Positions 1,811-15,529 of a stretch of 64,000 bases of DNA are shown here, piece by piece. The notes under the pieces were generated by a model. That model did not search any database, had not been told where the DNA came from, and was given only the letters and a program-made list of their open reading frames with translations. The position numbers were made by a program, and so were the translations under genes. Position 1 is the first letter of the stretch. Every line of letters starts with the position of its first letter. The DNA is from Prauserella isguenensis (GTDB taxonomy: Bacteria > Actinomycetota > Actinomycetes > Mycobacteriales > Pseudonocardiaceae), in assembly GCF_014191605.1 (NCBI RefSeq), contig NZ_JACHWU010000001.1, forward strand, positions 992,001 through 1,056,000, in the 5' to 3' direction.

Positions 1811-1958
1811 ACTGCGATCCCGCTGAGTCATCCGCAGCGCTGAGGCGGAATGCTCCCCAAGGTCACCAAGCTGGCGTTGAGCGCTCCTGAGGTGCCCGGG
1901 GAGCGCCTCAGGGCGTGCGAAAGTTGCGCTGAACGGGTGTCGCTCGAAGGTGTGGGCG

Positions 1959-2579
1959 TCAGCCGACGACGCGTTCGAGCACGAGGGAGACGTGCGGAGT
2001 CTTCGGGTGGCCCATCATGGCGCGCTCCTCGACGTAGCCGAGGTTGCCGCTGCCGTCGGGCATGATCCCGTACAGTCGTTCGGCGGCTGTGACCTCCTTG
2101 GCCGTCTGTGACCGCACCACGGCGTCGGTGGCGAGTTGCCACGCGGACTGCCCGCGGGTCTGGCCGTAGAACAGCTCGATGATGCCGGAGGAGTGCGACA
2201 GCACGAGCTCGATCGTGTCGTCGGCCTGCGGGCGCCAGAAGCCGGTCTCGCGTGCGGCGGGCCGGATGACGTTGCCGTCCGCGTCGAGCAGCCAGGACCG
2301 TGCCTCGTGGTACAGGAAAGGACGGCCGTCGTGGGCGATGGTGAGCTGCTGCGCGACGCGCGCGGGCTCGTCCATCGTCGGGTAGTTGACCTCGCCCTCG
2401 CCGCGCCACACGCCGATAAGCGGCAGCAGTGCGAGGCACGCGTCGTTGAGGTCGGCGCCCTCCCGCAGGTTGGCCGTGTCGCCGGGGATCGGCATATCGT
2501 CCAGCTGCGGGATGTTGCGGTGGGCCGTTTTCTGGGCGCGTTGCGCTGCGGCCTCGATGGCCTCGTCGCCGCTCGACAT
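1959..2579 (-). CDS. Nitrobindin-like FABP-family heme-binding protein (DUF1794)
   Basis: Cytosolic beta-barrel protein of the nitrobindin/THAP4 family (206 residues), which binds heme in characterised members and has been linked to nitric oxide or peroxynitrite chemistry. The motif GVWRGEGEV near residue 53 is the GxWxGxG fingerprint, and the C-terminal HVSLVLERV strand closes the barrel. It faces pabC tail to tail. The counterpart in M. tuberculosis is Rv0813c, again beside the aminotransferase. The first 45 residues form a polar helical extension common in actinobacterial members. The product class is clear; the physiological ligand is not shown by the sequence. Confidence 0.85.
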   Translation of the reverse strand: MSSGDEAIEAAAQRAQKTAHRNIPQLDDMPIPGDTANLREGADLNDACLALLPLIGVWRGEGEVNYPTMDEPARVAQQLTIAHDGRPFLYHEARSWLLDADGNVIRPAARETGFWRPQADDTIELVLSHSSGIIELFYGQTRGQSAWQLATDAVVRSQTAKEVTAAERLYGIMPDGSGNLGYVEERAMMGHPKTPHVSLVLERVVG

Positions 2580-2636
2580 CGGGGGTAAGCCTTACTCAGC
2601 GTTGGTGACGGGTGCTGTGCTGACGAACCGTGTCGC

Positions 2637-2732
2637 TCAGCTGTCGGTGTACAGCCGGTAGACGACGTAGCCCGCGAACCACGTCGACGCGACGATGGCC
2701 AGGATCAGCAGCGTCGTAAACAGAATCTCCAC
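2637..2732 (-). CDS. 31-residue single-pass membrane protein
   Basis: A short frame starting GTG reads MEILFTTLLILAIVASTW, then FAGYVVYRLYTDS, then stop. Residues 3-24 form one hydrophobic helix followed by a short positive/polar tail (YRLYTDS), so the predicted product is a one-pass membrane microprotein. An in-frame GTG seven codons upstream (about 2753) would give a 38-residue form with a GGGAC stretch before it, so the start is not settled. It lies upstream of, and in line with, the nitrobindin-like gene (58 bp gap). I do not recognise the family. The residue pattern and codon use look protein-like. Confidence 0.5.
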   Translation of the reverse strand: MEILFTTLLILAIVASTWFAGYVVYRLYTDS

Positions 2733-2904
2733 GCGCGGAAGAATAGCGCCCACGTCCCGGTTCGCCCGAGTCCCGGTGCCGCCTCGTGAGCATGGTCACC
2801 GGTCCGGGTTTCTGTCCCCGCCGCGTTCGCCAGGGCGGACGTGCCCACGTCTCCGAAACACTTAGCCCTTGCGTTAACTGTTTCGCGGGGTAATACTTAG
2901 CCGT

Positions 2905-3303
2905 ATGGCAAAGCTTTCGACTCCTGTGGCCGGTTCGGCTCCGGCGGAGCCCGAGCTCGACGGCGTCTTCCTGGCGCTGGCCGATCCCACGCGGCGTGCG
3001 GTGATCCACCGGCTCGGCGTCGGCTCGGCGAGTGTCGGCGATCTGGCGGCCGAGGCCGCGATGACGCTGCCCTCGTTCCTCAAGCACGTGCGGATGCTCG
3101 AGCGCAGCGGCCTGATCAGGACACACAAGGACGGCCGGGTGCGTACGTGTGAGCTCGACCGGGACCGACTCGGCGTCGTCGACGGCTGGCTCGCGCAGCA
3201 GCGACGGCTCTGGGAGGAGCGCACCGACCGGCTCGAAAGCTTCGTCACCGGAAACCCCGAAACCGGCGGTGACGCCACCGCCGACGAAAGGAACGAATCA
3301 TGA
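2905..3303 (+). CDS. ArsR-family winged-helix regulator
   Basis: 132-residue DNA-binding repressor of the ArsR/SmtB type. The opening LADPTRRAVIHRLGVG, the recognition helix LPSFLKHVRMLERSGLI and the wing RTHKDGRVRTCELD (residues ~25-90) are standard for the subgroup that regulates SRPBCC proteins. No cysteine/histidine metal site is visible, so it is not a metal sensor. The ATG overlaps nothing upstream, and its last codons overlap the next gene (ATGA at 3300), so the pair is translationally coupled. It probably controls its own operon; the inducer is unknown. Confidence 0.85.
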   Translation: MAKLSTPVAGSAPAEPELDGVFLALADPTRRAVIHRLGVGSASVGDLAAEAAMTLPSFLKHVRMLERSGLIRTHKDGRVRTCELDRDRLGVVDGWLAQQRRLWEERTDRLESFVTGNPETGGDATADERNES

Positions 3304-3773
3304 ATCCAGAACTCGACTTCACCCTCGACCGCATCATCCGGGCGCCGCGGAAGGCCGTGTGGCAGGCGTGGGCCGACCCGGACAACCTCGCGCAGTGGTG
3401 GATCCCCGAGCCGATGCGCTGCCGGGTCGACCGGCTCGACGTGCGCCCCGGCGGCGCGTTCGTGACGCGCATGAGCGACGACGGCACCACGTTCTCGCCG
3501 CACCTGGACGCCTGTTTCCTCGCGGTCGACGAGTTCGAGCGCATCGTGTTCACCAACGCCGTCGACAGCGCGTGGCGGCCGGCCGACCCCGAGCCCGTCA
3601 CGCTCGTCGCCGAGATCACGATGCGCGACCACCCGGACGGAACCGATTACCGGGTCGTGGTGCGCCATCGCGACCCCGAGGGGCTCGCCCGCCACGTCGA
3701 ACTGGGCGCCGAGGACGGCTGGGGCACCGTTGCCGACCAGCTCACCCGCTTCGCCGAGAACGGCGTGGACTGA
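3300..3773 (+). CDS. SRPBCC (AHSA1-like) lipid/START-fold protein
   Basis: 157-residue protein of the AHSA1/SRPBCC family, a helix-grip fold with a deep hydrophobic pocket. Typical features are the opening FTLDRIIRAPRKAVWQAW, the LAQWWIPEPM block, GGAFVTRM, and the final helix GWGTVADQLTRFAE. Overlaps the upstream ArsR gene by 4 bp (ATGA). ArsR-SRPBCC pairs are common in actinobacteria; some act as small-molecule-responsive pairs, but no substrate can be assigned here. It ends in a convergent arrangement with the TetR gene. Confidence 0.85.
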   Translation: MNPELDFTLDRIIRAPRKAVWQAWADPDNLAQWWIPEPMRCRVDRLDVRPGGAFVTRMSDDGTTFSPHLDACFLAVDEFERIVFTNAVDSAWRPADPEPVTLVAEITMRDHPDGTDYRVVVRHRDPEGLARHVELGAEDGWGTVADQLTRFAENGVD

Positions 3774-3823
3774 CGGCTGCAGAGCGGCCACGCCGGGCGG
3801 GAGCAGGCCGGATCGGGATACCG

Positions 3824-3852
3824 GTCGTCACGGAGGCGTCGGCCGTGACGAC
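3824..3852. terminator. Hairpin at the convergent 3' ends of SRPBCC and TetR genes
   Basis: Perfect 10-bp stem GTCGTCACGG / CCGTGACGAC with a 9-nt loop. It overlaps the last codons of the TetR gene and lies 50 bp after the SRPBCC stop. Probably a bidirectional terminator. Confidence 0.5.
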
Positions 3853-4514
3853 GGGTCGAGGCGGTCGAGGATCGCTGCGGTGACCCACGGGGCGAAGTCG
3901 TCGTGGGGCCAGCCGCAGACCGTCACCAGGTGGTCGTAGGCCTCGTGTGAGGTGAGCAGGCCGATCGTGTCGGCGAGGCGTTCGCGCGACGTCGCGTCCT
4001 GGCTCGGGACGTCCGCGAACGCAGACGTCTCGAGCCAGGCGGTGATCTCCCGCCTGCGCATCGCGGCCAGTTCCGCCCGCGCGGCGGCCACCGTCTCGTC
4101 CGACATCGCGGCGGCGGTGAACGCCCGCCAGATGCCCAGCGAGTCGCGCAGTCCGTCGGCCAACCGGGCCGTCGCGGTGGCCAACGCTCCGGCGAGGCCG
4201 GCCCCGCCGCTCGGGAAGCCGCCTATGAGCGCGGTGATGTCGACGGTGTCCGAATCGCCCGCGAGTCCGGTGCGGAACGCGGCCAGCAGCAGGTCGGCCT
4301 TGCGCCCGGTCTGCGTCACGGTCTCGAGGCCGACCCCCGCCTCGGTGGCGATCCGCCGCATGCTCGTGCCCGCGTAGCCGTGATCGGCGAACAGTCGGCC
4401 CGCCGTGGCGATCACGTGTGCGCGGGTGCGTTCGGCCCGCTCCTGCCGTACGCGGGATCGGTAGCGACGACGGGGGCGGCGCGACTCGTCGGATTCGTCG
4501 AACTCGGCTACCAT
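3828..4514 (-). CDS. TetR-family regulator
   Basis: 228-residue TetR-type repressor. Residues ~20-65 contain the helix-turn-helix: ATAGRLFADHGYAGTSMRRI, then ATEAGVGLETVTQTGRKADL. The usual YYHFPSK segment after the recognition helix is replaced by VTQTGRKAD, a common variant. The C-terminal ligand domain is alanine-rich and not diagnostic. I chose the ATG at 4514 (MVAEFDESDESRR) because the upstream extension is unlike the family. It is divergent from the glycosyltransferase gene, with 87 bp between the starts, so the glycosyltransferase is the most likely target. Confidence 0.8.
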   Translation of the reverse strand: MVAEFDESDESRRPRRRYRSRVRQERAERTRAHVIATAGRLFADHGYAGTSMRRIATEAGVGLETVTQTGRKADLLLAAFRTGLAGDSDTVDITALIGGFPSGGAGLAGALATATARLADGLRDSLGIWRAFTAAAMSDETVAAARAELAAMRRREITAWLETSAFADVPSQDATSRERLADTIGLLTSHEAYDHLVTVCGWPHDDFAPWVTAAILDRLDPSSRPTPP

Positions 4515-8267: not shown

Positions 8268-8797
8268 GACCGTGCTCCGGCGGTGATGCGCTCCGGGGTC
8301 TGCACGGACGCGTATCGGTGCAGCCGCAGCAGGCCGACGAAGGCGAGCGTCGCGGTCACAGTGCTCATGCCGAGCCGGAACCAGTGGCCGACCTCGAACT
8401 CGACGGCCGTCTGCGTCAGCAGTTCGGCGGAGTGCACCGCTGTGCCCTCGTCGAACATGGTCTCGTTGCGCGGCCAAAAGTACAGCATGGAGAACAGGAA
8501 CTCGCCGAGCGAGAGTGAGGTGAAGCTCGCCGTGAACCACCAGTTTGCCGGCTGCACTTTCCGGACCAGCAGCAACGTGACCACGGCGGCGATCAGCGTG
8601 GCCGCACCCATCGGTGGGAAGAAGTCGGCGGGACCGGTGACGTCGAAGAAGGAACTCGCCTCGGTCAGCGACCGTGGGACATCGTGGAACACGTTGGGAT
8701 AGATGACGATGGTCTCGACCGCGATTCCGCCGAAGGCCACCATGGCCAACCAGACGTACGCGGCCGAGACACAGAATCGGAGGCGGCTCACCCACAT
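8264..8797 (-). CDS. Membrane protein, first gene of the two-component operon
   Basis: 177-residue integral membrane protein with four hydrophobic segments (near 8-33, 60-78, 85-105 and 142-162). The segment ETIVIYPNVFHDVPRSL recalls DUF1772/anthrone-oxygenase-like membrane proteins, but the match is by eye only. Translationally coupled to the next gene by a 4-bp overlap. Its start ATG at 8797 opens the operon, so the promoter should lie in 8798-9000. Confidence 0.7.
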   Translation of the reverse strand: MWVSRLRFCVSAAYVWLAMVAFGGIAVETIVIYPNVFHDVPRSLTEASSFFDVTGPADFFPPMGAATLIAAVVTLLLVRKVQPANWWFTASFTSLSLGEFLFSMLYFWPRNETMFDEGTAVHSAELLTQTAVEFEVGHWFRLGMSTVTATLAFVGLLRLHRYASVQTPERITAGARS

Positions 8798-9163
8798 GAC
8801 AGGACTCCGTATGGAAGGGGACGGACACCGACACCGGAAACGCTAGGCCGGTCCGACCCGCGGACGCGTCCGTCGCGGCGCGCCCGTCGCCTACGCTTTT
8901 CGACGTACGCCGGCCCGGAGTGAGCCGCGGGCACGTGGCGTGGTGTTCGTCGGCCCCACTCAGCCGCTCGTCCTATGTGGATTGGCTGTCGACGTCGAGT
9001 CCGATGCTTACGGGAGATTCACGACCCGGTAAGTCCCGCTGGCGAATCAACGCACTGCACGGCCTGCAGGATCTGCACACGCCTGTCCCCGTGGTCGGCG
9101 AAGTCTTTCGACCCCGACCTTTCACAGGCTTGCTCACCGGGACTTCTCTCGCCGGCTCGGCCG
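8798..9163. other. Intergenic region, no gene recognised
   Basis: About 370 bp between the start of the membrane-protein operon and the 3' end of the methyltransferase pseudogene. It should hold the operon promoter. All frames were read; none gives a recognisable protein. Confidence 0.4.
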
Positions 9164-9995
9164 TCAAACGGGTTTGCGTGCGACACCGCCGACGATGTTG
9201 GCCTCGGCCGCGTCGATCGTGTCGGTGCTCTCCGGGCGCCAATCGGGAAGCCACACCAGGCCCGGTTCGACGAACTCGAAATCGCCGACCAACGCGACGA
9301 TCTCGTCCCGGCTGCGCTGGGTCAATGGCAACGTCGCACGGTTGGTGTACTGCCCGGCGACCGTCCGGAACGCATCCTGTACCTCGTCGTCCTCGGTGTT
9401 CAGGCTGACATGGGTCAGCGCCAGCAGACTGCCCGGCGGCAACTGTGCACGGTAGTAGGCCAGGGGGCGTTCCGGATGCCGCTCGTCCGGCATGAAGTGC
9501 AGTAACGTCACGATCAGCAGGCAGATGGGCTCGTCCGGGTCTATACCGCCCTCGTCCAGCACCCGCTGCCACAGATCCTCGCCGTCGAAGTAGTCACCGA
9601 AGAGCGCGTAGTGCCGTTCCGGATCGGCCGTGTCCTCCAACAGGATCTGCGCATGCGCATGCGATCGGCTCGTTGTCGATGTAGACCACCCGGCATTCAC
9701 CCGGCGCGACCTCGTCGGCCACCTCGTGCACGTTGCCCTGAGTCGGCAGTCCGCTACCGATATCGACGAACTGCCTGATACCGGACTCGACCGCGAACCG
9801 CACCGCTCGGCGCAGGAACTCACGGTTGGTCACCATGCCCACCCGCATCTGCGGCAACTCCCGCAACTGCTGCTCGGCGAACTCGCGGTCGACGGCATAG
9901 TTGTGCCGACCTCCGAGCACATAGTCGTAGATCCGGCCGGCGCTCGGGCATGGGCCGAGCGTAACCTCTGCCCCGCCGCACGCACACACATGCAC
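9164..9995 (-). pseudogene. SAM-dependent methyltransferase (Methyltransf_19/DUF574 type) with a frameshift
   Basis: Two adjacent frames together give one methyltransferase of the actinobacterial DUF574 type. The N-terminal part (9995 to about 9660) reads PSAGRIYDYVLGGRHNYAVD and FVDIGSGLPTQGNVHEVA, then VVYIDNEPIA. The C-terminal part (about 9670 to 9164) continues HAQILLEDTADPERHYALFG to VWLPDWRPE. The frame break lies inside an alternating GCATGCGCATGCGCAG stretch near 9652-9667; restoring two bases gives the family's DN-x-P-I-x-x-AHA pattern. So this is a recent 2-bp loss, a sequencing error, or a phase-variable site. The start is probably GTG at 9995. Divergent from the PucR regulator. 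Confidence 0.8.
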
Positions 9996-10129
9996 CCATC
10001 CGCACACGGCCGCTCGGCGCGACGCCACCGACCGGGGACGCAGTGCGGAGTCGTGACCGTCGAGGCGAACGGTCGCTGGTCGAACCCACGTGTCTCGACG
10101 TGGTCGCCGCCGGGAGGCATGCTCGGCCC

Positions 10130-12088
10130 ATGGTGGTGCGCGACGGTGACCGGGATTCGACGCTCTCGGTGTCGGACGTCCTGGAGTTGCTCGACGCGGT
10201 CGTCGCGGAGTCCGACGCTCCGGACGTGCCGACGACCGTGGGTACGGGTCTGGCTGCCGACGAGGTCGCCGCAATCGAGGGCAGGGTCAGGGACGTGCGT
10301 GCCTCTTTGGCGCGCTGGCGCCGCCGGGGACAGGAGCTGTCGGCGCTGTTCTCGAGTGCGCACGAACTCGCCGAGCTGCGCGACACCGATGCGCTGCTGG
10401 ATCGCCTGGTGGAGCGGGCCCACGACCTCCTGGGCACCGACGTGACGTACCTGTCCGAGTTTCATGAGGGCAACGACGAGCTGCGGGTCCGGTCGACATC
10501 GGGCGCGGTCGACTCGTCGTTCCGTGAACTGCGGGTACCGCCGGGGATGGGCCTGGCGAGCAGAGTCGTGCAGACCCGTAGTCCACAGTGGACCTCGACG
10601 TATCAGCAGAACGACGACATCCCGCACGAGCCGGGTATCGATGCGGCCGTCGCTGCGGAAGGACTCGTCGCGCTGCTGGGTGTCCCGATGATCGCGGGCG
10701 ACCGTGTCCTCGGCGTGCTGTTCGCCGCCAACCGAAGCGGACACAGCTTCGCTCCCGATGAGGTGGCGTTGTTGAGCGCTTTCGCGAACCACGCCGCCGT
10801 CGTGCTGCAGACGACGTCGTTGCTGGAGCAGGCGCGGCTCGCGGCTCACGAAGCGGATCGGGCCCGGGCGGTCCTGGCCGAGAACGTGACGGCGATGGAG
10901 CGTGCCAGCGCCGTGCACGAGGACCTCACCGCGGTAGTGCTGAAAGGCGGCAGCGCCCAAGGTCTGGCGGACACGTTGAGCGACGCTCTCAACCGGGCCG
11001 TGACGATCCTCGACCGGGATCGCGTCCCGGTGGCGCAGGCGCCGGGGTCGGAGGCCGGTCTGCTCCACGGCGGGGACGTGCCGTCCACGCGCGTGCGACG
11101 TGCCGTCGAGGAGAGCAGGCCCTCGGGCCGGTGCGTGTTCGTCGAGGGGGCCCCGACGGAACCGGAAGTGGTGGTCGCCGTGGTGGCGGGCGACGTTTTT
11201 CTGGGCGCGGTGCTCGTCGGGCACGGCGAGCTGGAACTCGGGGCCGTCGAGCAGCGGACGATCGAGCGGACAGCCCAGATCGCGGCCCTCGTGGCGGTGC
11301 AGCAGGACGCGGTCGCGGAGGCAGAGGATCGCGTCAGGGGCGAGCTCGTTTCGGACATCCTGCGGGGTGACGGGATGCAGCGGCGCGATCTCGCTCGCCG
11401 TGCGCGCGCCCGGGACGTGTGGCTCGACGAGCTGTGCACGGTCGTCGTCGTGGCGGTGCCCGCAGAGGCCCGGCGGGCCGTCGCGGTGGCGGTGCGCCGT
11501 TCGGGTCCGGCCGCTCTCGTGGGCGAGCGCGACGGGGTGCTCGCCGTGTTGTCGCCGGGCTCGGAACCCAACGACGTCGCCCGTGAGGTGTGGGCCGTCG
11601 CCCGCCGAGCCGTGGAGTCTCCGGTACTGGCCGTGGCCGGGCCGCCGGCCCCTTCCCCGGCCGAGCTGGGCGCATCGTTCGAGACGGCGCGCCGGTGTGC
11701 GCAGTTGCTCCAGCACCGGGCCGTGCCGGAGGGCGCGGTCGACGCTCAGGCCTACGAGCCCTACCTGGCCGTGTTCGGGTCCGGTTCGCGGGACCTGTCG
11801 CGGTTCATCGACTCGGTCATCGGCCCGGTGCTGCGATGGGACGCCGAACGCGGTACCGAGCTGTTCGCGACCCTGGCCGCCTTCGCCGACTCCCATGCCA
11901 GCCCGACCCGCACGGCACGGGCGCTGCATGTCCACATCAACACCGTCACGCAGCGGCTCGAACGGATCACCGCCCTGCTGGGAGACGACTGGCGCGAACC
12001 CGAACCGTTGTTCCGGGTATCGCTGGCGGCCCGGATGCACGCGCTCGTAGGCGGTCGTGCGACCGGCGGTCCCGTCGACGCCGGCTGA
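10130..12088 (+). CDS. PucR/CdaR-family regulator with GAF domain
   Basis: 652-residue transcription regulator. Residues ~85-240 form a GAF sensor domain (ALLDRLVERAHDLLGTDVTY, GLVALLGVPMIAGDRVLGVL). A GGDEF-like CdaR middle region follows, and the C-terminus (about 590-645) carries the PucR-type helix-turn-helix with SPTRTARALHVHINTVTQRL. Such proteins usually activate a neighbouring catabolic operon on binding a small ligand. The next gene on the same strand is a class II HMG-CoA reductase, followed by a TctA-like transporter. ATG at 10130 has a distant GGGAGG; GTG codons directly after it are alternatives. Confidence 0.88.
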   Translation: MVVRDGDRDSTLSVSDVLELLDAVVAESDAPDVPTTVGTGLAADEVAAIEGRVRDVRASLARWRRRGQELSALFSSAHELAELRDTDALLDRLVERAHDLLGTDVTYLSEFHEGNDELRVRSTSGAVDSSFRELRVPPGMGLASRVVQTRSPQWTSTYQQNDDIPHEPGIDAAVAAEGLVALLGVPMIAGDRVLGVLFAANRSGHSFAPDEVALLSAFANHAAVVLQTTSLLEQARLAAHEADRARAVLAENVTAMERASAVHEDLTAVVLKGGSAQGLADTLSDALNRAVTILDRDRVPVAQAPGSEAGLLHGGDVPSTRVRRAVEESRPSGRCVFVEGAPTEPEVVVAVVAGDVFLGAVLVGHGELELGAVEQRTIERTAQIAALVAVQQDAVAEAEDRVRGELVSDILRGDGMQRRDLARRARARDVWLDELCTVVVVAVPAEARRAVAVAVRRSGPAALVGERDGVLAVLSPGSEPNDVAREVWAVARRAVESPVLAVAGPPAPSPAELGASFETARRCAQLLQHRAVPEGAVDAQAYEPYLAVFGSGSRDLSRFIDSVIGPVLRWDAERGTELFATLAAFADSHASPTRTARALHVHINTVTQRLERITALLGDDWREPEPLFRVSLAARMHALVGGRATGGPVDAG

Positions 12089-12180
12089 CCCCACGGCGCC
12101 TCGGCCCGTCGTGGGCGGGACTCCCGTACGCCGAACACATACTCGGCGAACGGGTGAAACACACGTCGTGGCGGCAACGA

Positions 12181-12201
12181 ATATGGGTTGTTTACCCGTA
12201 T
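12181..12201. promoter_or_regulatory. Dyad symmetry before the HMG-CoA reductase gene
   Basis: ATATGGGT-TGTTT-ACCCGTAT is an inverted repeat (7 of 8 bases match between the arms) about 140 bp before the HMG-CoA reductase start. The surroundings are AT-richer than the flanks. It is a candidate operator for the PucR regulator; no clear -35/-10 pair was identified. Confidence 0.4.
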
Positions 12202-12339
12202 GGGTGTCGCCTGTCACGTCCTAGTGTTCCTGGTCGACCGGTACCGGCAGCGCGGCCGACCTCGCCGTCCCGCCTTGCCGCCCGGAGGTGAACGGTCGTC
12301 GTGGATCCGCGGCGACGCAGTACGGCGTGGGAGGTTCGT

Positions 12340-13617
12340 GTGTCCGTGAACAGCAGGTTGTCCGGGTTCCGGGACGAGTCACCGACCGCTCGGCGGGGGT
12401 TGCTCGCCGGACAGGGCGGGCACGATCCGGACGCGTTCCGTGCGCTGGATCCGTCCGCAGGCCTCACCGTCGAGCAGGCCGACCACATGATCGAGAACGT
12501 CGTGGGCGTGTTCGGCGTGCCGCTCGGCGTGGCCACGAACTTCACGATCAACGACGAGGACGTCCTGATTCCCATGGCGACCGAGGAGCCGTCGGTGGTC
12601 GCAGCCGCCAGCAACGCGGCCCGGATCGCGCGGGCGAGCGGCGGGTTCCGCACCTCGAGTTCCCGGCCTGTCATGCAGGCCCAGATTCAGGTCGTGGATG
12701 TGGAGGACCCGGAAGGCGCGCGGCTGCGCCTGCTCGACGCCCGCCACGAACTGATGCAGGCGGCCGACGAGCAGGACCCGCAGTTGGTCGAACTCGGCGG
12801 CGGCGTCCGCGACATCTCCGTACGGGTCGTCGAGTCCAGGGCGGGGCGGTACGTCGTGCTGCACCTGATGGTCGACGTCCGGGACGCCATGGGCGCGAAC
12901 GCCGTCAACTCCATGGCCGAGGCCCTCGCGGTGCGGGTCGGCGAGATCGCCCGCGGTCGTGTGTTGCTGCGGATCCTGACCAACAAGGCGGACACCCGGT
13001 TGGCACGTGCGAGCGCCGTGTTCGACGCCGAGGAACTGGGCGGGCCGGACGTCGCGGCAGACATCGTCCACGCGGGCGCGCTGGCCGAGGCCGATCCGTA
13101 CCGAGCGGCGACCCACAACAAAGGCATCATGAACGGGATCACCGCCGTCGTGCTCGCCACGGGAAACGACACGCGTGCCGTGGAGTCGGGGGCGCATTCG
13201 CACGCCGTCGGTGCGGACGGCCGGTACACCGCCCTCTCGCACTTCGAGACCGACACCGGCGGCAATCTGGTGGGCACGCTGGAGCTGCCGATGCCGGTCG
13301 GGCTGGTCGGCGGCGCCACGAAGGTTCATCCCGCGGCCCGGGCCGCGGTGGGACTGCTCGGTGTCGCCACGGCACAGCAGCTGGCCGAGGTGATCACGGC
13401 GGCGGGCTTGGCGCAGAATCTCGCCGCGCTGCGCGCGCTGGCAACGGAGGGCATCCAGCGCGGTCACATGTCGTTGCACGCGCGCAACGTGGCGGTCTCC
13501 GCAGGAGCGACGTCGGACGAGCTTCCGCACGTCGTGTCCCGCCTCGTCGCCGACCGTGCCGTACGCGCAGACCACGCCGACAGAGTGCTCGCCGAACTCA
13601 GGGCCGGCGGGCGGTGA
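12340..13617 (+). CDS. mvaA: Class II (degradative-type) hydroxymethylglutaryl-CoA reductase
   Basis: 425-residue cytosolic enzyme interconverting mevalonate + CoA and HMG-CoA with NAD(P)(H). It closely tracks the Pseudomonas mevalonii enzyme: start MSVNSRLSGFRDESPTARR; Glu83 in TEEPSVVAAAS (same number as the catalytic Glu of P. mevalonii); DVRDAMGANAVNSMAEA; catalytic Lys in ATHNKGIMNG; Asp in ATGNDTRAVESGAH; catalytic His in GIQRGHMSLHARN. GTG at 12340 has GGAGG six bases upstream and matches the family N-terminus. No other mevalonate-pathway gene lies nearby. The adjacent PucR regulator and TctA-like transporter favour mevalonate catabolism over isoprenoid synthesis. Confidence 0.93.
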   Translation: MSVNSRLSGFRDESPTARRGLLAGQGGHDPDAFRALDPSAGLTVEQADHMIENVVGVFGVPLGVATNFTINDEDVLIPMATEEPSVVAAASNAARIARASGGFRTSSSRPVMQAQIQVVDVEDPEGARLRLLDARHELMQAADEQDPQLVELGGGVRDISVRVVESRAGRYVVLHLMVDVRDAMGANAVNSMAEALAVRVGEIARGRVLLRILTNKADTRLARASAVFDAEELGGPDVAADIVHAGALAEADPYRAATHNKGIMNGITAVVLATGNDTRAVESGAHSHAVGADGRYTALSHFETDTGGNLVGTLELPMPVGLVGGATKVHPAARAAVGLLGVATAQQLAEVITAAGLAQNLAALRALATEGIQRGHMSLHARNVAVSAGATSDELPHVVSRLVADRAVRADHADRVLAELRAGGR

Positions 13618-13670
13618 ACCGTGTCGGGCGGCGGCACTCGCAGATCTCGGTCACGACACGGGAGTGAGCA

Positions 13671-14174
13671 ATGAGTGGCAACGAAGAAGCGGCTTACAAG
13701 GAATCCACTTCGGACTCGGCAGGCGAGCGACGGCCGGCGTCCGGCGACGCCGAGGCCACGCCTTATCTCGTGTTGTGGGGCGACGCGGTGGCGCCGAAAG
13801 AGCTGGGCCGATCGTTGATCCTCGCCGTCCCGGTGGCGTTGGCGGCGTTTCTGCTGGCGCAGCAGGTCTTCTCCGGGACGGGCAATCAGAAGGTCGCGGA
13901 CGGTTACGCGCTCCTGGTCGGACTCGCGGCATGTGTGGTGACGGGTGCGGTCTGCGCGAAGCTGTTCACACCGAAACGCGTGTTCGTCGAGAGTCACTCC
14001 GACGACGTGCGCCCCGACCTCGCCCCGGAGCTCTCCTCCCCTGAGGCCGTGTCGGGCCTGCCCGAACAGTACATCGCGGAGATGCGGGAGATCGGGCTGT
14101 ACGGATCCGCGCCGTCGGCCGAGGGCCCGGCGCGGTCGGCTGACGGCCCGGTGGACAAGGGAGTTCGGCGATGA
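13671..14174 (+). CDS. Small membrane subunit, TctB-like by position
   Basis: 167-residue protein. A polar N-terminus (~45 residues) is followed by two hydrophobic helices, about residues 45-65 (ILAVPVALAAFLLAQQVF) and 80-100 (YALLVGLAACVVTGAVCA), then a charged acidic tail of about 65 residues. It lies between the HMG-CoA reductase and the TctA-like gene and overlaps the latter by 4 bp (ATGA). In tripartite tricarboxylate transporters a small membrane subunit TctB accompanies TctA; this fills that place. Sequence similarity to TctB is not obvious by eye, so this is positional inference. Confidence 0.65.
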   Translation: MSGNEEAAYKESTSDSAGERRPASGDAEATPYLVLWGDAVAPKELGRSLILAVPVALAAFLLAQQVFSGTGNQKVADGYALLVGLAACVVTGAVCAKLFTPKRVFVESHSDDVRPDLAPELSSPEAVSGLPEQYIAEMREIGLYGSAPSAEGPARSADGPVDKGVRR

Positions 14175-15529
14175 TCGTTGACCTGCTCTGGGCCCTCGGG
14201 ATGGGGCTGACGGGTGCCGTCGTGTTCGGCGCCATCGGCTTGGTGTCGGGTACCGACGAGACCGCGACGCTCGGGCCGTTGACCTTGATTGTCGTGTTGG
14301 CCGGCGTCCCTCCTGTCGGCGTGTTCACGTTCTTCATCGCCGCGGCCGTGTCGAAGCACATGACGCACGCGATTCCGACCACTCTGCTCGGGATCCCCGG
14401 TGACACCATGGCCGTCCCGCTCATGGAGGACGCGGACGGGATGCGGCGGCTCGGGGCGCCACACGTCGCGTTGCGCAAAGCCCTCGCGGGTGCGCTGCTG
14501 TCGGCGGTCGTGGCGGTGCCGGTGGCCGTGGGAATCGCGACCGCGTTGGCGCCGCTGTCCGAGACGGTGGAGGCGGTCGCACCGTGGCTGTTCGCGGGCG
14601 CCGCGATCTTCGTGGGGTACTTCTCGCCGGGCCGCTGGGCGAGCGTCGTGGGCATCATTCCCTTCACGCTGGCGGTCGCCGCGTTGCACGGGTTCACAGA
14701 GCAGCATCTCGGCGACTCGCTGAGCATCTCGTTCTTCCTCGGCATCGCGATCGGGCCGCTGCTGGCGGATCTGGTGAGGGCGACGTCCCGCAGCGGGCGT
14801 GCGGGGATGGAACGCAGTGGTGTCCGGGAGTTCCGGCTCGCGCCGGACCTGTCGGGCGGCAAGGGTTCCTTCCCGAATCCGCTACGGGTGCTCACCCGGC
14901 AGCAGATCGGCTACACGGCGGGTTCTGCGGTGGTCACGTCGTCCACCTTCGTTTTCAGCCCGGTGGCGACGACCGTCATCGTGGGTGAAGCGGTGGGGGC
15001 GCGGCTCAAGCACCCTTACCAGCGGCTCAGCTCGTTGATGGCGGTCAAGAACGGCACGACGGAGTCGACGTACCTGGCGGAGACGATCATTCCGCTGGTG
15101 GCGTTCGGCCTGCCGTTGAGTCCGGTCGCGGCCGGCCCGGCCGCCGCATTGTTCAACGCGCCGCCGGTCTACTCGGTGGATTCGGGGCAGAACCTGCATT
15201 CGATGCTCTCGTCGTGGCAGTTCCTGCTGTGCGGTCTGCTCGGTGTGCTCGTCGCGGCCGTCGTCGTCTACCCGGTCGCCATGAAGTACGCACGAGTGGC
15301 CAGCGCATGGGTGATCACACGCATCAGCCACGAGGCGCTCATCGCCGCGTTCGCCGGGTTGATCGTCGTCGTGTCGTGGTACGAGGGAGGCCTGCTCGGG
15401 CTGTTGACGTCGTTGACGGTGGGGCTGCTCGGTGGGTTGTGCAACCGGGCGTTCGGCATGAACGCAGGTGTGCAGTTCATGTGCTACTACACCGCGACGA
15501 TGTTCGTCCCCATCCTGCTGGCGGCGTGA
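14171..15529 (+). CDS. TctA-like large transporter subunit
   Basis: 452-residue inner-membrane protein with about 10-12 hydrophobic segments. Around residue 60 the sequence HAIPTTLLGIPGDTMAVPLM, then EDADGMRRLGAPHVALRKAL, mirrors the TctA pattern (AILLNIPG...DGYPMAKKG...A). A second copy-like segment near 290-325 (YQRLSSLMAVKNGTTESTYL, LVAFGLPLSPVA) fits the internal duplication of the family. TctA forms the channel of solute-binding-protein-dependent carboxylate symporters. No TctC binding-protein gene is present here. Coupled to the TctB-like gene, it is likely the permease for mevalonate or a related acid. Confidence 0.75.
   Translation: MIVDLLWALGMGLTGAVVFGAIGLVSGTDETATLGPLTLIVVLAGVPPVGVFTFFIAAAVSKHMTHAIPTTLLGIPGDTMAVPLMEDADGMRRLGAPHVALRKALAGALLSAVVAVPVAVGIATALAPLSETVEAVAPWLFAGAAIFVGYFSPGRWASVVGIIPFTLAVAALHGFTEQHLGDSLSISFFLGIAIGPLLADLVRATSRSGRAGMERSGVREFRLAPDLSGGKGSFPNPLRVLTRQQIGYTAGSAVVTSSTFVFSPVATTVIVGEAVGARLKHPYQRLSSLMAVKNGTTESTYLAETIIPLVAFGLPLSPVAAGPAAALFNAPPVYSVDSGQNLHSMLSSWQFLLCGLLGVLVAAVVVYPVAMKYARVASAWVITRISHEALIAAFAGLIVVVSWYEGGLLGLLTSLTVGLLGGLCNRAFGMNAGVQFMCYYTATMFVPILLAA

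Follow-up and report, generated by a model that had tools for sequence, protein, structure and literature searches.

A probable mevalonate import-and-catabolism gene cluster with a TctA-family permease in Prauserella isguenensis

We analyzed a stretch of 64,000 nucleotides from Prauserella isguenensis (positions 992,001 to 1,056,000 of the forward strand of contig NZ_JACHWU010000001.1, RefSeq assembly GCF_014191605.1), which is referred to here as the window; the source genome comprises 4.95 Mb in 15 contigs. The window contains a four-gene cluster (positions 10130 to 15529) coding for a GAF/PucR-type regulator, a class II 3-hydroxy-3-methylglutaryl coenzyme A (HMG-CoA) reductase (HMGR), a small membrane protein, and a TctA-family permease. 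The cluster probably represents an inducible module for the import and catabolism of mevalonate, from which sterols and terpenes are built; we put the probability of this reading at roughly 0.84. A catabolic function is very likely, and mevalonate is, judging from the gene neighborhoods, the likely transported substrate. An earlier note, made from the sequence alone, had proposed a mevalonate uptake-and-catabolism module; the proposal gained support from the lack of an HMG-CoA synthase match in the genome, the detection of an HMG-CoA lyase, and the recurrent linkage of reductase and permease. These three points were computed, as were the gene identities, the reductase residues, and the presence of CoA-transferase-family genes.

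Mevalonate catabolism by an HMGR and an HMG-CoA lyase is already known from Pseudomonas mevalonii (mvaAB). In the scheme that we propose for P. isguenensis, extracellular mevalonate would enter the cell through the permease and its two-helix partner, with no TctC binding protein involved. There, mevalonate would be oxidized to HMG-CoA by the class II HMGR, with CoA and (judged by residue type) NAD; an unlinked HMG-CoA lyase would split this product into acetyl-CoA and acetoacetate, the latter being turned back into acetyl-CoA by a 3-oxoacid CoA-transferase. The GAF/PucR-type regulator would switch the operon. Within this scheme, we infer the substrate, the directions of transport and of the reductase reaction, the inducer, the acting CoA-transferase, and what the small subunit does.

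RESULTS

The reductase and its host genome

The HMGR gene (positions 12340 to 13617, forward strand) encodes a protein that matched PF00368 (353 bits) and passed the TIGR00532 "degradative" model (411.6 bits; cutoff, 259.95), whereas its score against the NADPH-type model was far from sufficient (54.4 bits; cutoff, 441.8). In an alignment to the P. mevalonii enzyme (1qax), the active-site Glu of EEPS, Lys of NKG, Asp of GND, and His of RGH were all kept, as the earlier note had claimed for the four catalytic positions, which we take to be residues 83, 267, 283, and 381 of the P. mevalonii enzyme. In the same alignment, an Asp of the HMGR coincided with P. mevalonii Asp146, presumably the residue that determines the preference for NAD. 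This HMGR was the only one found in the genome, and its nearest named relatives belonged to the Pseudonocardiaceae. At a Burkholderia cenocepacia locus (L157), the HMGR that adjoins the same type of permease aligned almost identically to 6p7k, and the B. cenocepacia enzyme is reportedly called "oxidative" in the title of a 2014 paper.

No match to HMG-CoA synthase was found anywhere in the genome, which carries the 2-C-methyl-D-erythritol 4-phosphate (MEP)-route genes dxr and ispE. Four GHMP kinases were found, none of which reached the mevalonate kinase cutoff. Three of the four were identified as IspE, ThrB, and GalK (NCBIfam), and the fourth (L154, positions 1871 to 3175) scored 30 bits against mevalonate kinase (cutoff, 163). 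A biosynthetic mevalonate pathway was rejected on the basis of the lack of HMG-CoA synthase, the MEP-route genes, and the lack of a kinase above the cutoff. Likewise, no full biosynthetic mevalonate operon using the HMGR, an outcome that the earlier note had named as contradicting a catabolic role, was found in the genome.

The earlier note had also expected an HMG-CoA lyase elsewhere in the genome, and a single match above the cutoff was located on another contig (370 bits); neither an HMGR nor the permease was found in the 20-kb stretch around this lyase. Thus, two features of mevalonate catabolism were found together, namely, a lyase and an HMGR outside a biosynthetic mevalonate pathway. 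Seven proteins in the genome matched the CoA-transferase family PF01144, and one of these could be responsible for converting acetoacetate back to acetyl-CoA. Because the genome has MEP-route genes, no synthase, no mevalonate kinase above the cutoff, and one lyase, the most likely role of the HMGR is the oxidation of mevalonate.

Conservation of the gene neighborhood

A scan of public sequences matched at least 592 HMGR stretches, from which 80 loci were kept for the public counts; neighbors were counted within 5 kb using bit-score floors that we set. This type of TctA occurred within 5 kb of HMGR at 18 of the 80 loci, in every case downstream on the same strand and together with the small subunit. 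The order HMGR-small subunit-TctA on one strand was thus present at 18 of 80 public loci and was also present at 9 of the 15 HMGR loci from the host's order, often with the lyase gene in between. HMG-CoA lyase, which lies inside the cluster in many relatives, was encoded within 5 kb at 13 of the 18 public permease loci. Seventeen of these 18 loci had a regulator, which was of one of two unrelated types (GAF/PucR in 5 and MocR in 12). The conserved PucR-HMGR-TctA neighborhoods for which the earlier note had suggested a search therefore exist, with a PucR-type regulator at 5 of the 18 loci. Homologs of the GAF/PucR-type regulator were found no more than 5 kb from HMGR at 14 of the 80 public loci and 12 of the 15 order loci. 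The MocR-type regulators (annotated as members of the pyridoxal phosphate-dependent aminotransferase family) were divergent from HMGR at L043, L044, L058, and other proteobacterial loci, where they take the place that the PucR-type regulator has at many Actinomycetota loci. The hosts included Rhodococcus, Nocardia, Brevibacterium, Agrococcus, Rhizobium, Bordetella, Variovorax, Burkholderia, Caballeronia, Achromobacter, Pseudomonas, and a Clostridium, such that the linkage spans Actinomycetota, Pseudomonadota, and one Clostridium.

Genome samples were searched with protein queries, for which no more than five candidates per genome were scored and weak relatives can be missed. In the order sample (298 genomes, including that of P. 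isguenensis), HMGR was detected in 15 genomes, the permease in 12, and both in 10; the two genomes with a permease and no HMGR contained an HMGR-free operon in one case and a 107-residue permease fragment in the other. The phylum sample (396 genomes) yielded HMGR in four genomes and the permease in two. In another genus (that of genome G222), the permease was found in 3 of 297 genomes, one of which was shared with the order sample. Altogether, 14 full-length permease copies were recovered from the genome samples, with 12 beside HMGR and 2 in an HMGR-free operon containing the lyase gene. Among plasmids, 37 records had HMGR and 6 had the permease, with HMGR within about 1 kb in all 6; of the 37 plasmid HMGR loci, 13 were opened, 3 of them for their TctA match, and the 4 of 13 with TctA do not represent a rate. 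Pairwise distances of HMGR and permease were correlated across 32 loci including the window (r = 0.69; 0 of 999 permutations as high), a correlation that shared ancestry alone can produce. In genome G289, which had no HMGR match, a GAF-regulator-like fragment adjoined a 107-residue permease fragment (L149, positions 3149 to 3923); this pair is probably a decayed remnant of the module.

The HMGR-free operon was found in genomes G222 (L148) and G725 (L162). Here, the permease and small subunit lie in a same-strand run that also encodes a family III CoA-transferase, two dehydrogenases (a zinc alcohol dehydrogenase and an aldehyde dehydrogenase), and HMG-CoA lyase. The CoA-transferase was nearest to succinate-glutarate CoA-transferase, at a score far below the cutoff (309.5 bits versus 750). 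Such an operon would convert mevalonate via mevaldate and 3-hydroxy-3-methylglutarate (HMG) to HMG-CoA, the substrate of the lyase. G725 carries both an ordinary cluster (L161) and the HMGR-free one. The aldehyde dehydrogenase matches in L162 (positions 11235 to 12712) were in two frames, and this gene may be broken or misassembled.

The permease and its small partner

The permease gene (positions 14171 to 15529, forward strand) overlaps the small-subunit gene (positions 13671 to 14174, forward strand) by 4 bases. The permease matched PF01970 over nearly its entire length (68.6 bits; gathering cutoff, 28.9; profile positions 3 to 413 of 423), as did all 17 aligned relatives (E value, 0.001). 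In comparison, the canonical TctA of this genome, which is encoded in a TctC-TctB-TctA operon, scored 498 bits. This distance also bears on a second outcome that the earlier note had named as contradictory, transport of an unrelated substrate such as citrate, of which we found no sign. No NCBIfam family matched the permease of the window at an E value of 1, and only chance-level single matches were obtained among the 17 relatives. Solved relatives were not found by sequence at an E value of 1.

The small subunit has two predicted transmembrane helices, with a conserved PKR after helix 2, and was predicted by AlphaFold to form a two-helix hairpin. Two helices were predicted in 33 of 35 relatives and three in the other 2. 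PF07331 (TctB) was not among the families listed (25 of 26) for the 17 aligned members at an E value of 1, and a profile comparison with the TctB of this genome (hhalign) gave a probability of 0.25%, that is, no match. Identity with TctB was therefore rejected by profile; the protein is TctB-like by position only. Of the earlier TctB/TctA label, the TctA half stands on its PF01970 match and the TctB half does not.

The earlier note had further remarked that the cluster lacks a TctC binding protein, which would have to be encoded elsewhere. The first part holds; as for the second, the single TctC match of the genome belongs to the TctC-TctB-TctA operon mentioned above, outside the window, and was rejected as a cognate partner. 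Near the permease at 35 other loci, TctC-like open reading frames (ORFs) were found only in the flanks of L050 and L093, and none was adjacent; this search used one TctC as the query, and a very distant TctC could be missed. Neither a TctB subunit nor a TctC in the operon, the marks of a TctABC tripartite system, was thus found. The best reading of these sequences is a TctC-less TctA-type importer paired with a new small subunit. We lean, at odds slightly better than even, toward the broader proposal that this TctC-independent TctA subfamily and its two-helix subunit constitute a natural mevalonate importer serving two oxidation routes of distinct chemistry, the HMGR route and the HMGR-free one.

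Other transporters at HMGR loci

A regulator was found no more than 5 kb from HMGR at 38 public loci; of these, 17 had this TctA, 6 had a TRAP large permease, and none had both. On other plasmids, the annotated neighbors of HMGR include TRAP or ABC genes. Both TRAP and binding-protein ABC systems are importers, and their occurrence at other HMGR loci therefore supports import at this cluster. In a tree of 99 HMGR sequences with three states (TctA, TRAP, and other), 17 changes were required, compared with a shuffled mean of 33; the tree used 99 of 111 rows, leaving out four near-duplicates and rows outside 380 to 540 amino acids, and the transporter labels were set by hand. Solved relatives of a TRAP binding protein included a lactate-binding protein among the best matches, and mevalonate appeared in no molecule name listed.

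Eight TctA-free HMGR loci (L023, L105, L106, L110, L022, L035, L025, and L118) had a family III CoA-transferase, HMG-CoA lyase within 10 kb, hydantoinase A/B-like genes, and, in most cases, an enoyl-CoA hydratase-like gene (hydantoinase and hydratase calls by Pfam for L106, by annotation for L118, and by eye for the rest). Our guess is that these clusters break down the anhydromevalonyl units of fungal siderophores. Genome G180 holds both cluster types (L102 and L106). On a Shinella plasmid (L124, positions 8290 to 15052), HMGR is followed by sugar-type ABC transporter genes and a gene resembling SMP-30/gluconolactonase; mevalonolactone as the food source would be consistent with a lactonase. 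A gene of the AtuA family (acyclic terpene utilization) adjoins HMGR on a haloarchaeal plasmid (L129, positions 8269 to 9618), and an AtuA homolog lies near HMGR on a Sporomusaceae contig (L061).

Gene calls and flanking regions

Genes were called with a simple caller that miscalled some frames, and the identities of the module genes rest on profile, tblastn, or phmmer matches. The regulator gene (positions 10130 to 12088, forward strand) starts at an ATG at 10130, and its longest ORF opens at 10043. The protein has GAF_2 (66.2 bits), GGDEF_2 (44.4 bits), and C-terminal HTH_30 (62.1 bits) domains (Pfam), and the C-terminal HTH_30 with a GGDEF-like domain places it in the PucR/CdaR type. The arrangement described in the earlier note, a PucR-type GAF regulator followed by a class II HMGR and a transporter on one strand, was thus borne out by the domain matches and by the forward orientation of all genes.

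The HMGR frame is open from 12301. Three same-genus relatives have a copy, however, and in two of them a stop codon inside the HMGR match falls in this extension; because of this stop, the 12301 start is considered too early, and the probable start is GTG at 12340 or 12346, with GGAGG directly upstream. The stretch between the regulator and HMGR genes (positions 12089 to 12339, forward strand) showed patchy conservation in an alignment of same-genus relatives and would probably contain a promoter/operator and the HMGR leader. A terminator scan yielded one terminator-like site, which was below the shuffled mean, and no convincing repeats were detected around the gene starts. The flanking genes look unrelated to the cluster: upstream, on the other strand, there is an S-adenosyl methyltransferase gene, and downstream there are genes for a DUF1232 protein, an FMN reductase, and a LuxR-type regulator.

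DISCUSSION

The cluster shares with P. mevalonii mvaAB a class II, apparently NAD-type HMGR with conserved catalytic residues that is used with an HMG-CoA lyase. It differs from mvaAB in its unlinked lyase, its GAF/PucR-type regulator, and its transporter pair. The likeness to TctABC (PF01970/PF07331/PF03401) consists of the nearly full-length PF01970 match and the overlapping small membrane gene upstream; the much lower score (68.6 versus 498 bits for the canonical TctA), the two-helix non-TctB subunit, and the lack of a cognate TctC in our searches set it apart. On alphaproteobacterial plasmids of Tistrella, Ruegeria, Nitratireductor, Sagittula, and Shinella, HMGR is also adjoined by transporter genes, but these are TRAP genes (ABC in Shinella) nonhomologous to this permease, and the regulator is divergent (MocR type in four of the five and GntR family in Sagittula). 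Mutated eukaryotic monocarboxylate transporters, MCT1 F360C and an evolved yeast JEN1, are described as importing mevalonate (PMC12405511). Mevalonate import is proposed as the common activity, but the candidate here would belong to a different family and occur naturally in bacteria. Neither a TctA-type gene nor any other natural bacterial gene for mevalonate transport was described in the open-access titles and abstract openings listed, a body of text that mostly excludes the older P. mevalonii papers; to this extent, the earlier note's remark that a TctA-type mevalonate importer was undescribed holds. As far as the open literature reaches, the novel elements are the transporter pair, the consistency of its linkage in our samples, and the HMGR-free operon.

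Several observations weigh against mevalonate import and catabolism by this cluster. In this genus (the window and three sampled relatives), the lyase lies outside the HMGR cluster, and thus we infer the full route in the host. HMGR occurs without this TctA at 62 of 80 public loci; many of these are archaeal or Chloroflexi loci, where HMGR may be biosynthetic. Fifteen of the 38 regulator-linked loci had neither this TctA nor a recognized TRAP, such that the transporter is not obligatory. Of the six TRAP loci, L039 has TRAP on the other strand and L059 and L084 have it upstream of HMGR, so a "same slot" for the transporters holds only loosely. When profiles were compared directly, the permease family aligned weakly to the genome's canonical TctA (probability, 7.5%; E value, 0.0046; 108 columns), and the kinship is therefore distant and rests on Pfam. 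The AlphaFold model of the permease was of modest confidence (pLDDT, 70.7), and no solved fold resembled it at an E value of 0.001 or better, the model being mediocre and the search correspondingly weak. Lastly, the promoter scan detected no sigma-70-type site.

Among the alternatives, the one that survives best is that the permease carries HMG or acetoacetate instead of mevalonate. TctA-family systems are known for tricarboxylates, and HMG and acetoacetate, as di- or keto-acids, are closer to the known Tct substrates. HMG-CoA lyase is also present in the HMGR-free clusters, with acetoacetate as the common product, and the succinate-glutarate-like CoA-transferase, despite its score, could activate free HMG. 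However, the HMGR route does not pass through free HMG, the alcohol and aldehyde dehydrogenases of the HMGR-free operon would be needless for HMG, and uptake of either compound leaves unexplained why 12 of the 14 sampled permease copies have HMGR next to them. We regard this alternative as unlikely.

We give still less credence to a biosynthetic HMGR that supplies mevalonate to isoprenoid or secondary metabolism while the permease exports or scavenges something else. Class II HMGRs are biosynthetic in archaea and Gram-positive cocci, archaeal relatives were among the 80 public HMGR loci, and the genome has a GHMP kinase (L154) outside IspE, ThrB, and GalK. Yet the genome content described above speaks against such a role, and an HMG-CoA-destroying lyase is encoded within 5 kb of HMGR at most of the public permease loci (13 of 18). 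Least probable is a bystander permease, an ordinary carboxylate transporter adjoining HMGR by chance: the TctA superfamily is large and the 15 loci with neither transporter would fit, but the linkage recurs across two phyla and one Clostridium, every full-length copy stands beside HMGR (12) or the lyase (2), all six plasmid records have HMGR nearby, and the HMGR-permease distances correlate.

With mevalonate import and catabolism as the preferred reading, a widespread gene pair whose neighborhood points to mevalonate makes the importer question testable. The pair could give metabolic engineers a natural importer for mevalonate feeding. If the reading is true, a TctA permease would be able to function with neither TctC nor TctB, and the purpose of a group of degradative HMGRs would be explained.

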